Below, one piece after another: positions 3,135 through 16,310 of a stretch of DNA of 28,589 bases; positions within the stretch are counted from its first letter, which is position 1, and each line of letters opens with the position of its first letter. A program made the position numbers and the translations under genes. Below the pieces are notes generated by a model, which was not told the DNA's origin, ran no database searches, and worked only from the letters and a program-made list of their open reading frames with translations. Source of the DNA: a virus; the IMG/VR virus record IMGVR_UViG_3300028829_003074, positions 1 through 28,589 of that record; one strand, given 5' to 3'.

Positions 3135-3174
3135 AAATATTCTTTCCTTACTTTATTTAAGTTTATTTAAAATG

Positions 3175-3512
3175 CCACTTTTCTGTTGCTAAGCAAGTGG
3201 CCAGCTCCCTGTGTTATGCCGCTAGGGCGTAACCAGATGGTGCAAAATTATTGTTTGCATTTGTAGTTTTTGGCTTAATAACGTATGCCAACACGGTAAT
3301 CTACTCTCATCTCTCTACGCCAGTCGATCCTATTTCGACCCCATCATAAACACACTACTTGCAGTATCTTCCTCTGCGTAACCTCTATAGTAGGAGGTAA
3401 CTTAGTTTATTCGTAGCCTTGCCACTTCTAGTTCAAAGCAGTGTGTTTATGGTGGAGTCGCTGGGTACCGCCCCCAGGTCCTGTCCGCATGTTGAATTGT
3501 ATCAACGATTAC
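3175..3512 (-). ncRNA. ssrA: Circularly permuted (two-piece) tmRNA, alphaproteobacterial type
   Basis: Reading leftward, the acceptor piece comes first: T-arm CTGGG-GGCGGTA-CCCAG (within 3461-3480), then acceptor strand CGACTCC and an encoded ACCA ending at 3450. A processed spacer follows (3343-3449) whose ends pair over ten bases (agtgtgttta 3440-3449 with taaacacact 3347-3356). The coding piece begins at 3342 with GGGGTCGA; GGGGTCG pairs with CGACTCC over seven bases (one G-U), rebuilding the acceptor stem. The tag frame is 3258-3214: GCA resume codon, peptide ANNNFAPSGYALAA, stop TAA. The hydrophobic ALAA end is the usual protease signal. The RNA rescues stalled ribosomes. A hairpin with arms 3195-3200 and 3175-3180 closes the 3' end. 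Exact mature ends are estimates. Confidence 0.93.
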
Positions 3513-3516
3513 TAGA

Positions 3517-3546
3517 TATATATACAACTTTTAGTTAGAATGTCAA
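3517..3546 (-). promoter_or_regulatory. Sigma70-type promoter for tmRNA
   Basis: Minus strand TTGACA (3546-3541) followed after 16-18 bases by TATATA/ATATAT. The predicted start near 3508-3512 is just before the acceptor piece. It begins TTGACATTCTAACTA, like the promoter of the DNA polymerase gene. Confidence 0.7.
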
Positions 3547-3564
3547 TATTAAAAAAAATATTTT

Positions 3565-3675: not shown

Positions 3676-4450
3676 TAGAAATATCTCCTGAATAAGAATA
3701 CTTAACAATATCACGCACAACATTTTCAAAATCTTTAAGATGTAACATGTTAGGACCGTCGCTTGGAGCGCTGTCTGGATAGGGATGTACTTCTAAGAAA
3801 AAACTAGTAATCCCAAGAGCGGCCCCAGCACGAGAAAGATGAGGAACATACTTACGATTTCCACCAGACGAGGTTCCGTTTGCTCCTGGTAATTGGACCG
3901 AGTGCGTAACATCATATACAAATCGTGGCCCAAGATTAGAAAGGAGATCGTGCATGCCAGCGAAATCATTAACCAAACGTCCGTACCCAAAACTTGTTCC
4001 TCTCTCAGTTATCCAAACTTCTTTTGCCTTCTTTGTTTTACTTAATATACCATCAACATCTTGAGGTGCAAGGAATTGTCCTTTTTTAATATTTACAATA
4101 GATCCAGTTAAACATGCTTCTACAATTAAGTCGGTCTGTCTACACAAAAAGGCTGGGATTTGTAATACATCTACTATATCTTTTAAATACCATACTTGTT
4201 CTTCTTGATGAACATCAGTTAATGTTTTAACGTTATACGTATCTTTTAGAACTGAAATGTCTTGTATGAATGACTGCAAGCCTACACCTCTAACGCCTTT
4301 TATGTTCGTGCGATTAGCTTTATCAAAACTTGCTTTAAATATATATTCAGCGCCGTACTTATCACACACACGTTTACATTCTTTAGCAATCATAGACGAT
4401 TGTGCAAGAGTTTCGTGTTGACATGGACCGGCAATAATTCTTATAGTCAT
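3668..4450 (-). CDS. kdsA: 3-deoxy-D-manno-octulosonate-8-phosphate synthase
   Basis: 260 aa, the usual length is ~260-285. It condenses phosphoenolpyruvate with D-arabinose-5-phosphate to KDO-8-phosphate, the first committed step to the KDO of lipopolysaccharide. Visible family motifs in order: AGPC (7-10), FKASFDKANR (38-47), TDVHQEEQ (78-85), QIPAFLCRQTDL (97-108), NIKKGQFLAPQ, GTSFGYGRLVNDF, DVTHSVQLPG, LEVHPYPDSAPSDGPN. Cys10 in AGPC, with the His of DVTHS, the Glu of LEVH and the Asp of PSDGPN, is the ligand set of the metal-dependent class of the enzyme. It follows the cupin gene with a TAATG overlap and precedes a 36-aa ORF. In a phage it would raise or redirect KDO supply during infection; that role is inference. 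Confidence 0.93.
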   Translation of the reverse strand: MTIRIIAGPCQHETLAQSSMIAKECKRVCDKYGAEYIFKASFDKANRTNIKGVRGVGLQSFIQDISVLKDTYNVKTLTDVHQEEQVWYLKDIVDVLQIPAFLCRQTDLIVEACLTGSIVNIKKGQFLAPQDVDGILSKTKKAKEVWITERGTSFGYGRLVNDFAGMHDLLSNLGPRFVYDVTHSVQLPGANGTSSGGNRKYVPHLSRAGAALGITSFFLEVHPYPDSAPSDGPNMLHLKDFENVVRDIVKYSYSGDISNG

Positions 4451-4806
4451 TATACCTGTGTGCCTATTGACCTACGTACAATATCATCGTGATTAAATTC
4501 AGCCCAATATAATTCAAATGCGACGCCGTCTTTAAGACCTTCAAACTGATGAATCTTACCAGGTTTTACTTGAGTAAAATCACCAGCATTAAGTATAGTT
4601 TCATCTACTAAACCTTCTTGGTCGTCGTCTTGCCAAACACGCACAATCATAGAGCCTGATTCAACAAAGAAGCCGTTCCATTTAAAACGGTGTTCATGCT
4701 CACTGCATTTAAATCCTTTATTAAATTCTATGCGATGAAATTCTAATACGCCATTTGCATGTACTAGTTCTGTTTTTCCCCAGATCTTTCCTGCCTTTAT
4801 GCCCAT
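4450..4806 (-). CDS. Single-domain cupin protein
   Basis: 118 aa, one cupin beta-barrel. First cupin motif around residues 34-53 (CSEHEHRFKWNGFFVESGSM: EHEH supplies metal-binding His, followed by Glu and Gly), second motif around 79-92 (VKPGKIHQFEG, with the third His). Small cupins of this kind include sugar isomerase-like and dioxygenase-like proteins; next to kdsA a sugar-phosphate role (mannose-6-phosphate isomerase-like) is attractive but not shown. The stop overlaps the kdsA start by one base, so the two are cotranscribed and probably coupled. Confidence 0.75.
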   Translation of the reverse strand: MGIKAGKIWGKTELVHANGVLEFHRIEFNKGFKCSEHEHRFKWNGFFVESGSMIVRVWQDDDQEGLVDETILNAGDFTQVKPGKIHQFEGLKDGVAFELYWAEFNHDDIVRRSIGTQV

Positions 4807-6530: not shown

Positions 6531-6971
6531 TTACTCAGTAAATGAAGTAATTTGCCACTGCATTTTTTCGTGAAAGTCAATACGATCTTCAAGAAAACTT
6601 GCTACTCCAATTTGTTTTAATTGTTCAGCCATTCCATGTGCTTCTCTCAATTCAGCAAGAAATCTTTCGTTATCTTGACCTAAACGAACAAACATAAAGT
6701 TTGGACTTGGGATAGAAAGCTCATCTGATATAACCGACAGCTCAGAAAATCTTTTTAATGAACCTGGCGTAAATGAGTTAAGAGCACGAATATGTTCTGC
6801 GTAATCGTCAATAGCTTCAAATGTATTTTCATAATAATCAGAAAAGAAATCGTGGTATTGTTTAAAGTTTGGACCAGTTACGTTCCAATGATAATTGTGT
6901 GATTTTAAGTACAAAGAAAAAGCTGAAGCAAGTACAACTTTCAGCTTTTCTATTAGGACTTCAGTTTCCAT
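6531..6971 (-). CDS. Dps-like ferritin-fold protein
   Basis: 146 aa, a four-helix ferritin-like protein of the Dps family, which stores iron and can protect DNA as a dodecamer. The Dps signature is clear: HWNVTGPNFKQYH (28-40), then DDYAEHIRAL (55-64). Aligned by spacing with E. coli Dps, H28, H40, D55 and E59 match H51, H63, D78 and E82 of the ferroxidase centre, but the D67 position is S44 (D45 is adjacent). Iron oxidation may therefore be altered. A TATAAATA late promoter sits 32 bases upstream and AGGAG precedes the ATG. First gene of a late operon with the two small genes and the sulfotransferase. Confidence 0.87.
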   Translation of the reverse strand: METEVLIEKLKVVLASAFSLYLKSHNYHWNVTGPNFKQYHDFFSDYYENTFEAIDDYAEHIRALNSFTPGSLKRFSELSVISDELSIPSPNFMFVRLGQDNERFLAELREAHGMAEQLKQIGVASFLEDRIDFHEKMQWQITSFTE

Positions 6972-7015: not shown

Positions 7016-7041
7016 GGGGAGCCCTACTGCAGTGGCTCCCC
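7016..7041 (-). terminator. Terminator of the structured RNA
   Basis: GGGGAGCC (7041-7034) pairs with GGCTCCCC (7023-7016) around a 10-base loop, followed by TTTGATAT. The T-run is short, so efficiency is uncertain. Confidence 0.65.
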
Positions 7042-7415
7042 TCTTATCTGCATTTCACGTATGCAGCAACCGACTGGGTTTCAATTCGGTACCAGCGAGT
7101 TTACCGACCTAAGTTAGAGGGCCGCTTCCATACTTAGGGCTTTGTTGGGTACGTTTAGCGAAATTGCTAGGCTTTCCCCTTTGCCTTTTATCTGGTTTTC
7201 ACGACACCGGTATTTCACGGGCGGTATATTCACCAGATATTCTATTTTGGCCCGACCTTATTTACTAACGACGCGCAGGCTACGTCAGACGATGTATCTC
7301 TTTACGTCATTTTTGATACTTTACGTATCTGAGGGTTTGACAACCTCATTAACATCGTCTTGCTAAGGAATGAGTTCTTATCGCCTGGTCGGATTTTCCT
7401 CATTCCTTATTGTGT
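7016..7415 (-). ncRNA. Structured noncoding RNA of unidentified family
   Basis: A ~400-base stretch without a convincing gene, much richer in complementary segments than neighbouring DNA. Leftward stems in order: 7408-7399 with 7374-7365 (ten perfect pairs, 24-base loop); 7360-7352 with 7295-7287 (nine pairs) enclosing a hairpin 7329-7325/7319-7315; 7239-7233 with 7195-7189 (seven pairs); 7138-7132 with 7114-7108 (seven pairs); 7066-7061 with 7053-7048 (six pairs); then the terminator at 7041-7016. CCGACC in the first loop is complementary to GGTCGG near 7255, a possible pseudoknot. The strand is chosen because of the terminator and the sigma70 promoter upstream at 7604-7576. A few segments recall RNase P RNA, but its universal core is missing. 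Family unknown. Confidence 0.6.
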
Positions 7416-7575: not shown

Positions 7576-7604
7576 AATATAACTGATTCTCAATAGAATG
7601 TCAA
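7576..7604 (-). promoter_or_regulatory. Early promoter with internal palindrome
   Basis: Minus strand TTGACA, 17-base spacer, TATATT. The spacer holds the inverted repeat ATTCT-ATTG-AGAAT, shared with the promoter at 7866-7894 and nearly with that at 9062-9090. The TGA of the upstream gene is inside the -35 box. Confidence 0.8.
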
Positions 7605-7865: not shown

Positions 7866-7894
7866 ATACTAACTGATTCTCAATAGAATGTCAA
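7866..7894 (-). promoter_or_regulatory. Early promoter with internal palindrome
   Basis: Minus strand TTGACA, 17-base spacer with ATTCT-ATTG-AGAAT, then TAGTAT. It stands 32 bases before the ATG at 7834. Confidence 0.8.
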
Positions 7895-8259: not shown

Positions 8260-8326
<67 letters not shown>

Positions 8327-8336
<10 letters not shown>

Positions 8337-8494
8337 TTTCTTGTTATAAGATCAAGAACAATACTCAACTCATATATTGCTTTATCTAAAACTAAATGAG
8401 CGGTTTGATTATCATTCTTTTTCTTTTCTTCGTGAAGAAACTCTAACCTTACCTTTATATAGTTTTCTACTTCAGGTTTGTTTCCTCTACGCAT
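8327..8494 (-). CDS. Small basic/helical protein, unknown
   Basis: 55 aa, MRRGNKPEVENYIKVRLEFL followed by a charged helix and AHLVLDKAIYELSIVLDLI. Its last codons (GGAGATTAG) lie inside the first 10 bases of tRNA-Pro, so tRNA processing would remove the stop codon from the message. AAAAGGA precedes the ATG by a suitable distance. It sits between tRNA-Trp and tRNA-Pro. Confidence 0.5.
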
Positions 8495-8511
8495 AATATA
8501 TCCTTTTTATT

Positions 8512-8586
8512 TGGCATAGGTGCAAAGAATTGAACTCTGTCTTTCGGATTTGGAATCCGACGTGCAACCATTAACACTTCACCCAT
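8512..8586 (-). tRNA. tRNA-Trp (CCA)
   Basis: 75 bases with encoded CCA. Acceptor ATGGGTG/CACCTAT (one G-U), D-stem GTGT/GCAC, anticodon stem TCGGA/TCCGA with loop TTCCAAA (anticodon CCA), T-stem CAGAG/CTTTG with loop TTCAATT. Stems contain weak pairs, so it is more divergent than its neighbours, but all arms form. Confidence 0.88.
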
Positions 8587-8591
8587 ATTAT

Positions 8592-8668
<77 letters not shown>

Positions 8669-8674
8669 ATTTAT

Positions 8675-8751
8675 TGGTGCTCCCGGTAGGACTCGAACCT
8701 ACGACCGACCCGTTATGAGCGGGGAGCTCTAACCAACTGAGCTACAGGAGC
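8675..8751 (-). tRNA. tRNA with CAU anticodon (Met or Ile2)
   Basis: 77 bases with encoded CCA. Acceptor GCTCCTG/CGGGAGC, anticodon stem CCCG/CGGG with loop CTCATAA (anticodon CAT), T-arm GTAGG-TTCGAGT-CCTAC. It could be elongator Met or the lysidine-modified Ile tRNA for AUA; sequence alone does not settle it. Confidence 0.94.
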
Positions 8752-9061: not shown

Positions 9062-9090
9062 AATATAACTGATTCTCAGTAGAATGTCAA
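9062..9090 (-). promoter_or_regulatory. Early promoter for 90-aa gene and tRNA cluster
   Basis: Minus strand TTGACA, 17-base spacer with ATTCT-ACTG-AGAAT, then TATATT. One base differs from the palindrome in the promoters at 7576 and 7866. Confidence 0.82.
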
Positions 9091-9948: not shown

Positions 9949-10572
9949 TTACTTTAATTTTGGAAATAGCATATCAGTACAAAATCTGTCTACATCCTTT
10001 TCAGGTAAACCAAGACTTTTCATAACATTTGCGGTATGAGGATTTTGTTGCTGATTGTGACAATAGTAATCTTGACATTTAGCAATACTCATTGGATCAC
10101 CTTTTTTATCATATAGACCTACTTGTTCAAAATAAGTATACATATTGTCTATAGCTATACGAATTATTTCAGTTACTAGTTCACGTTGTTTATTTGGGAC
10201 AAAGTGTTCTACACTTTTATAATAATCTTTTATCATATCGTGGTCAGGATCTACGCTTGGAGAGAAATCGTGAAAAGCACCAGTGATTTTATTTTCACCA
10301 GCAATTATATCAAATCCATATATAGGAGCAGGATTATGTAATTGTGGAAATATACAAACGTGCATCATCCATAAGCGTTTTGACTCACGAGCATCTACTA
10401 TATCTATATGAGCTCGACGTATACTATCGTTAGACCACACGCGATTTATCCATCCACCATCAGGTCTATTAAAATAATCTAATCCATCCTCATGTATTTC
10501 TATCGCCTGTTCGTCAAAAATCTTTATGATTTTATCTTGACAATCTATAAGCTTATCCCAAATAATGGACAC
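9949..10572 (-). CDS. Ferredoxin-dependent bilin reductase (PcyX/PcyA-like)
   Basis: 207 aa. The central block WMMHVCIFPQLHNPAPIYGF (68-87) followed by DIIAGENKITGAFHDFSPS matches the core of ferredoxin-dependent bilin reductases (PcyA: LHxVxFPRxxxxLPxFGxDIV...DLSP). H71 and D88 align with the catalytic His and Asp of PcyA. These enzymes reduce biliverdin with electrons from ferredoxin to open-chain pigments. The family PcyX, found in uncultured marine viruses thought to infect alphaproteobacteria, is PcyA-like and makes phycoerythrobilin; this gene fits that description, but the product cannot be read from sequence. No heme oxygenase is in the window. It is 3 bases behind the glycosyltransferase, in the topoisomerase-medium-subunit operon. 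Residues 133-180 are the source of the inverted copy at 9436-9580. Confidence 0.82.
   Translation of the reverse strand: MSIIWDKLIDCQDKIIKIFDEQAIEIHEDGLDYFNRPDGGWINRVWSNDSIRRAHIDIVDARESKRLWMMHVCIFPQLHNPAPIYGFDIIAGENKITGAFHDFSPSVDPDHDMIKDYYKSVEHFVPNKQRELVTEIIRIAIDNMYTYFEQVGLYDKKGDPMSIAKCQDYYCHNQQQNPHTANVMKSLGLPEKDVDRFCTDMLFPKLK
10033..10177 (-). repeat. Source copy of the 145-bp inverted duplication
   Basis: Lies inside the intact bilin reductase frame, so this is the original and 9436-9580 the copy. The two are identical at every base I compared and separated by 452 bases. Confidence 0.92.
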
Positions 10573-16281: not shown

Positions 16282-16310
16282 AATCTATCTGATTCGCAAG
16301 AGAATGTCAA
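16282..16310 (-). promoter_or_regulatory. Early promoter for gene 39
   Basis: Minus strand TTGACA, 17-base spacer with ATTCT-CTTG-CGAAT (imperfect form of the shared palindrome), then TAGATT. Confidence 0.82.

Follow-up and report, generated by a model that had tools for sequence, protein, structure and literature searches.

A candidate multi-domain noncoding RNA with movable modules in a lineage of T4-like marine phages

Introduction

GOLLD and ROOL are large, ornate phage RNAs whose function is not known. GOLLD (RF02032) lies near tRNA genes and sometimes has tRNAs inside it, and ROOL (RF03087), found in phages and prophages near tRNA islands, has several pseudoknots and forms an oligomer via kissing loops (PMC12286853). 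In both GOLLD and the RNA OLE, switching of a loop palindrome (GGCC to GAUC or AGCU) supported the intermolecular bridges seen by cryo-EM; in OLE the switching loop (GGCC/GAUC/AGCU) lies at the dimer interface (PMC12286853).

The phage element described here has in common with GOLLD a tRNA-adjacent location, a conserved 3′ region with a variable 5′ region, and palindromic loops that switch sequence, the last being a statistical signal seen in sequence alone. GOLLD is often over 800 nt long, whereas the new RNA spans about 110–400 nt and its modules are permuted between viruses. Like ROOL, it is a phage RNA near tRNAs with several pseudoknots; oligomers have been seen for ROOL and are predicted here from the loops, and the new RNA is smaller and has a different secondary structure. 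The loop of its module F switches as that of OLE does, although OLE is bacterial, not phage, and has no Rfam match in the window. We read the element as a previously undescribed class of large phage RNA that would work in a GOLLD- or ROOL-like manner while being unrelated to either in sequence.

Results

The window, the whole stretch of DNA analysed, is a 28,589-base IMG/VR contig from a T4-like virus known from metagenomes alone. It was assigned as T4-like from a gp39/gp52-type topoisomerase II, a gp46/47-type nuclease and a T4-family DNA polymerase. This polymerase is ∼44% identical to those of the Synechococcus phages topping the hit list, and no cultured phage was found at a DNA polymerase identity of at least 60%. 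The RNA is flanked by a 43-aa ORF on one side and a Dps-like gene on the other, all on the minus strand, and its first base is the one directly after the stop codon of the ORF.

3171-3560, minus strand: permuted tmRNA of alphaproteobacterial type
6971-6531, minus strand: Dps-like gene (phrog_3636)
7016..7415, minus strand (7415→7016): the whole structured RNA, ∼400 nt, with modules detected by nhmmer here and in other viruses
ATG 7547, stop 7418-7416, minus strand: 43-aa ORF (MEQFITLGGIIFLSGVIGYILGNRSGWSSAKEIYGKDNPYVDV), between the promoter and the RNA and outside the RNA
7576..7604, minus strand: strong sigma70-like promoter, TTGACA-17-TATATT, 11/12 matches
7576-7604, 7866-7894, 9062-9090 and 16282-16310, minus strand: copies of the promoter TTGACATTCTATTGAGAATCAGTTATATT, which precede small ORFs and the RNA
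8260-8751, minus strand: four tRNAs

The ORF gave no PHROG match. An early promoter had been predicted upstream of the RNA; the site itself stands, matching at 11 of 12 positions, but it is located upstream of the 43-aa ORF. Sites of this type occur four times on the minus strand of the window against 0.01 expected, and in several homologues a TTGACA/TATATT-like sequence was seen by eye immediately 5′ of the modules. Variants of the GAATCAGTTATATT type are also present in related contigs.

A structured RNA of ∼400 nt had been predicted for exactly this interval, and the fold agrees: the minus strand has a fold energy of −121.5 kcal/mol (z = −4.1), equalled by none of 100 shuffles, and compensatory changes were found in homologues, as detailed below. 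The plus strand of the same interval gave a fold z of −3.2. From 5′ to 3′ the modules form the chain A–B–C–D–E–F–G–T, and the helices present measure 11 bp in A, 8 bp in the closing stem of B, 4 bp in C, 8 bp in D, 7 bp in F, 6 bp in G and 8 bp in T.

7365..7410, minus strand: module A, an 11-bp hairpin with conserved loop GAAAAnnCGAnCAGGnnnUAAGAA, supported by covariation
7288..7359, minus strand: module B, an 8-bp closing stem GACGAUGU/ACAUCGUC around conserved strands
7249..7287, minus strand: module C, a GACG(UAGCCUGCG)CGUC stem-loop, then UUAGUAAAYAAGGUCGGGC
7189..7240, minus strand: module D, a near-invariant self-closing domain of ∼48 nt, CUGGUGAAUAUACCGCCCGUGAAAUACCGGUG(A/U)CGUGAAAACCAG, that recurs in different RNA contexts
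7144..7187, minus strand: module E, a small pseudoknot with a GGC/GCC stem and loop GGG pairing with downstream CCC
7108..7138, minus strand: module F hairpin, CCUAAGU..ACUUAGG, with a palindromic apical segment (GGCC here)
7070..7109, minus strand: H-type pseudoknot, UCGGUA/UACCGA plus GCUGG/CCAGU, supported by covariation
7043..7069, minus strand: module G hairpin, CUGCAU(ACGUGAA)AUGCAG, 97.5% paired, 4/6 pairs compensatory
7016..7041, minus strand: module T, the 3′ hairpin GGGGAGCC-ACUGCAGUAG-GGCUCCCC with palindromic loop CUGCAG, 98.1% paired, 7/8 pairs compensatory

The window region was searched against Rfam 15 with permissive filters at E<=10 and gave no credible family match, the nine matches listed all being below gathering scores and of unrelated kinds. 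Likewise, neither covariance models nor ARAGORN called a tmRNA or tRNA within the RNA interval, the only ones in the window being those at 3171-3560 and 8260-8751. Twelve related loci at gathering thresholds returned just tRNAs (one a borderline tRNA-Sec) and tmRNA, and five further loci at E<=3 returned tRNAs and weak matches under gathering scores.

The first relative, L004, was found as a neighbour of a Dps gene, and the RNA blocks recur there in changed order. Homologues were collected by scanning viral contigs for patterns from the RNA blocks, followed by nhmmer, which gave 10 loci for A, 14 for B-C, 19 for D, 37 for E and 69 for F-G-T; the last correspond to 46 distinct sequences, all in uncultured viral contigs. 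Several scan patterns also gave chance matches in coding sequence, among them two related ones (L002, L003) to the exact pattern with the module A loop. The covariance model R1 detected F-G-T in 43 of 51 viral records, once in each, and the few second matches were weak, on the opposite strand and on the hairpins of the same element. No cultured phage was matched when the window region and two 3′ domains were used as blastn queries; queries from L018 and L009 matched at tRNA genes or tRNA positions among the matches listed (for L009, the first 20 of 1039 records), and none of these was followed into a structured module. Two fixed patterns, which diverged copies could escape, had no true match in 84,980 prokaryotes (one genome per species). 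L089, the sole match of a looser cellular pattern (the first pattern gave none), contained no module match and was taken as chance.

The 3′ domain was examined using alignment A5, containing 46 distinct sequences, and a 32-pair structure written from the window. Of the cells, 96.0% are paired, and 19 of the 32 pairs carry double changes (149 cells). On none of the five measures did any of 500 shuffles do as well, and sliding the structure left 32–46% paired. The H-type pseudoknot, absent from the original prediction, consists of UCGGUA/UACCGA and a second helix, GCUGG/CCAGU, which joins the loop of the first to a downstream strand. This second helix is 99.6% paired with three of its five pairs double-changed, becoming GCUAG/CUAGC in L004, L011 and L015 and CCGG/CCGG in L026. 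On inspection of individual sequences, the module E stem GGC/GCC changes to GAGC/GCUC and its loop-to-tail helix GGG/CCC to GAG/CUC.

Module A was paired in 93.5% of cells, with 5 of 11 pairs compensatory (0–1 of 500 shuffles) and a near-invariant loop. The closing stem of B has double changes in five of eight pairs, three of which are missing, as aligned, from three L018-type sequences. In C, two of four pairs are compensatory, GACG/CGUC being replaced by GUGG/CCAC in L027; RNAalifold on B/C folded C differently, and the stem supported by L027 was retained. These tests of A, B and C used only 7 and 10 sequences, and variation in D was too small for a covariation test. Covariation in homologues, which had been named as a check on the proposed stems, backs the 3′ domain structure strongly, including the H-type pseudoknot, and modules A, B and C more weakly.

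Some details of the original prediction changed on comparison. Its closing terminator is a real hairpin, that of module T; the label is doubtful, since the window has no more than UUU after the hairpin, a strict terminator scan of the window found none, and a T4 run follows the hairpin in just 20 of 40 distinct homologous tails. Judging from the homologues, the 3′ hairpin is a conserved structural element with a U run after it only sometimes. A pseudoknot of CCGACC with GGTCGG was not supported; in F, GGUCGG takes part in the UCGGUA/UACCGA stem. The proposed pairing is lost in L018/L021, L026 and L027, the GGUCGG of F stays conserved in viruses without module A, and that of C is conserved in L010 and L022, both of which lack A. 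A hairpin inside B (GAUAC/GUAUC) was paired in just a third of cells as aligned and was likewise not supported.

The order of the modules varies between viruses, and tRNAs are often interleaved. The arrangements were as follows, in 5′ to 3′ direction.

Window: A-BC-D-E-FGT
L011, L013, L015: BC-D-A-E-FGT
L004, L012, L014: D-BC-tRNAs-FGT
L025, L073: H-tRNA-Pro-A-FGT, the H of L025 carrying a (diverged) D
L009: tRNA-Arg-tRNA-Met-E-FGT-H[D]
L087, L061: tRNA-Arg-E-FGT-tRNA-Asn-tRNA-Met
L018, L021, L027: A-BC, then another 3′ half, without F-G-T
L030 and relatives: gp32-(E)-FGT, then a convergent gene

The same orders were recovered from different metagenomes, which argues against assembly error. 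Module D is found in the context C-D-E in the window, C-D-A in L011, before B in L004 and before another element in L026, and also inside a hairpin of a different RNA, H, in L009, L016 and L017. A short hairpin takes the place of D in the H of L006 and L057; D is diverged in the H of L025, L051 and L055, and shortened in L064. The absence of any credible Rfam 15 match, the homologues with compensatory changes, the module-specific distribution and the lack of an isolate together support the suggestion that this is a new phage RNA class.

H is itself a second structured RNA of ∼135–185 nt near tRNAs in the same virus group. Its closing stem changes on both sides, its loop palindrome alternates between GAUC and GGCC, and D replaces one of its hairpin tips in some viruses; the one copy tested has no Rfam match.

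L006, 1562-1696: RNA H
L016, 5107-5278: RNA H
L017, 6374-6543: RNA H
L025, 7129-7297: RNA H
L051, 5616-5782: RNA H
L055, 9888-10046: RNA H
L057, 3241-3370: RNA H

In other contigs, A and/or B-C are joined to a 3′ half of another kind, CACAUGCAC...GUGCAGCUG; the parts are in some cases split or in changed order, with intervening tRNAs, and the combination is probably a sister RNA class.

L018, 5880-6650: A and/or B-C with the different 3′ half
L021, 7046-7450: the same combination
L022, 11850-11940: the same combination
L023, 3978-4081: the same combination

Elsewhere (L026 1031-1130, L064 2325-2394), D, in full or shortened to CUGGUGACGUGAAAACCAG, is followed by the conserved element GGACAGCCUGGGAGAGGUGUAACACACAGCCCGAAGUCC. 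Between B-C and the tRNAs, a tRNA-like sequence (GGTAACGATTGG...GGTTCGATTCCTTGGTTATC) lies at about 2550-2640 in L004 and at 14500-14620 in L010; Rfam calls no tRNA there in L012, which is the same contig as L004.

In all 46 sequences F has a self-complementary stretch near its apex, of which there are 14 different types: GGCC (19 sequences), CUGCAG, GGGCCC, GGUACC, CCCGUACGGG, CCUACGUAGG, CGCUCGAGCG, CGCGCGCGCG, CCUCGAGG, CCUUAAGG, the extended CAGCUGCAGCUG and three GCGC forms. The type switches ∼21 times on a rough tree. Having been spotted by eye, the palindromes were then tested. Summed over 14 representatives, the longest palindrome reached 106 against 59.3 +/- 6.8 in shuffled hairpins (0 of 20,000; z 6.9), and a conservative test, in which the hairpin was folded and only the apical loop scored, found palindromes in 16 of 20, where at most 8.0 would be expected (P = 1.3e-4). 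A chance value of (1/16)^13 was set aside, since selection of the palindromes had preceded the count. The claim rests on these two pooled tests, the dinucleotide test per hairpin being weak for single hairpins, and the GGCC of the window, its only F palindrome, is not significant alone. In CCC-GUAC-GGG-like hairpins the stem part of the palindrome is explained by the hairpin itself, which leaves the central tetramers to carry the argument. When the RNA is folded as a monomer, part of several palindromes is taken up by a hairpin stem that encloses a 4-nt palindromic loop, and no palindromic tetramer occurs in 4 of the 20 distinct predicted apical loops.

The loop of T has just two types, CUGCAG (31/46) and CCUAGG (15/46), and in the window it may pair locally. 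The HIV-1 dimer initiation site is a hairpin with a 6-nt self-complementary loop. The T loop, of the form ACUGCAGnA or ACCUAGGAA, resembles it, although that site is an unrelated element of a retroviral genome. That the palindromes of F and T switch and yet stay self-complementary suggests that copies may form homodimers or oligomers via kissing loops.

Discussion

The single copy, strong structure, movable 5′ part, tRNA neighbours and self-complementary loops, taken together, point to a self-assembling phage RNA. We read the element as a noncoding RNA of several domains that belongs to a marine lineage of T4-like phages. The analysis shows separately folding modules, a conserved 3′ domain of F-G-T with its H-type pseudoknot, often preceded by the E pseudoknot, a variable 5′ part whose modules A, B, C and D can be permuted and frequently have tRNAs among them, and a single copy per record. 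The early-type promoter at 7604-7576 would drive the RNA together with the small ORF, and the transcript would then be processed or protected to give a stable RNA. Copies would associate by kissing between the self-complementary loops at the tips of F and T, giving dimers or larger oligomers, and the interchangeable 5′ modules could serve as display or guest-binding domains, making the RNA a GOLLD- or ROOL-like phage scaffold produced near tRNA arrays. We regard this explanation as a whole as about an even prospect. More tentatively, and less likely than not, phages of this one uncultured lineage may possess a combinatorial system, in which large RNAs are assembled from a common stock of independently folding domains. 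These domains would be exchanged, reordered and inserted into hairpin loops in the manner of protein domains, upon a 3′ base that assembles with itself and whose palindromic loops switch, letting the RNA of each virus recognise its own kind.

The main rival of a self-assembling RNA is a cis-acting 3′-UTR element, since in one group the element directly follows gp32. E-F-G-T would then end or protect phage mRNAs, with the 5′ modules as adjoining separate small RNAs or leaders. RNAs cut from 3′ UTRs are common in bacteria, and the two readings are compatible. In about a dozen distinct loci (E-)F-G-T comes directly after a gp32-type gene. In one set of contigs (L029, L030, L038, L043, L047, L048, L060, L068, L072 and L074) it is preceded by the stop codon of such a gene, and a convergent gene lies 9–31 nt past the element except in L029, where the contig ends. 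The gene of L030, the sole one of the set compared with PHROGs, is a phrog_224 SSB. The window element likewise follows an ORF, of 43 aa, and a U run accompanies half of the T hairpins and is missing from the other half. A general mRNA-end element should recur, whereas each record has one copy; in many viruses the element sits among tRNA genes rather than after a long ORF; and a simple protector leaves the switching of self-complementary loops unexplained. We consider this alternative rather unlikely, if a serious one.

Loop switching also bears on a second alternative, that the RNA is a decoy or regulator whose modules are bound by proteins or RNAs of the host or the phage and are shuffled in an arms race, the palindromes being mere hairpins or sites for dimeric proteins. 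Strictly conserved single-stranded segments (the A loop, D, the C strand) would suit such a role, as would the exchange of modules between RNAs and a location in a variable region of tRNAs and small ORFs. A protein site would be expected to stay constant, but in the F palindrome it is self-complementarity that is kept while the sequence varies, and no target or partner was found. This seems improbable.

It is very improbable that the element is a diverged RNase P RNA or a diverged GOLLD or ROOL. The likeness to RNase P RNA type A (RF00010) consists of the short strings GAGGAAAAUCCG, GUCGGUU and GGCCAAAAUAG of the original prediction, where the first two were suggested to pair as in P4. These strings belong to different modules that move independently, the first two to A and F/G; most F-G-T loci lack GAGGAAAAUCCG, and the GU of GUCGGUU is engaged in a different helix of the 3′ domain, one that covaries. 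Moreover, the RNase P model matched neither the window nor 11 related records, whereas it detected its target in 11 of 14 control genomes, which largely refutes a derived RNase P. For GOLLD, the argument is one of layout, a conserved 3′ and variable 5′ region with tRNAs between (PMC12286853). None of the three families matched in the window at E<=10, and across the 12 records the RNase P, GOLLD (RF02032) and ROOL (RF03087) models gave nothing at E<=1; the latter two also matched in no control genome, which makes their negatives weaker than that of RNase P.

A mobile DNA repeat (a REP-like palindromic unit) would explain modules that move between loci, palindromic centres and intergenic position, and seems the least probable of all given the single copy per record, the strand-specific H-type pseudoknot and G-U-tolerant pairs, and the promoter that precedes the window element on its own strand, with TTGACA/TATATT-like sequence before the modules of several homologues.

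If true, the self-assembling reading would add a third, unrelated phage RNA class with the GOLLD/ROOL layout. Its core of ∼110–180 nt is small enough for easy biochemistry, and nature supplies variants with single domains missing, moved or swapped; domain shuffling in noncoding RNA is rarely this clear. The switching palindromes predict that loops of one type pair with each other, and that assembly should fail between loops that do not match.

The window and its relatives have further features. Permuted (two-piece type) tmRNAs, matched by both RF04321 and the alphaproteobacterial tmRNA model, are present in the window (3171-3560, minus strand) and in L023 (11042-11405, plus strand), which hints at a possible alphaproteobacterial link. 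Auxiliary genes of the window, all on the minus strand, include cysteine-dioxygenase-like (4450-4806), ferredoxin-oxidoreductase-like (9949-10572) and Dps-like (6531-6971) genes.
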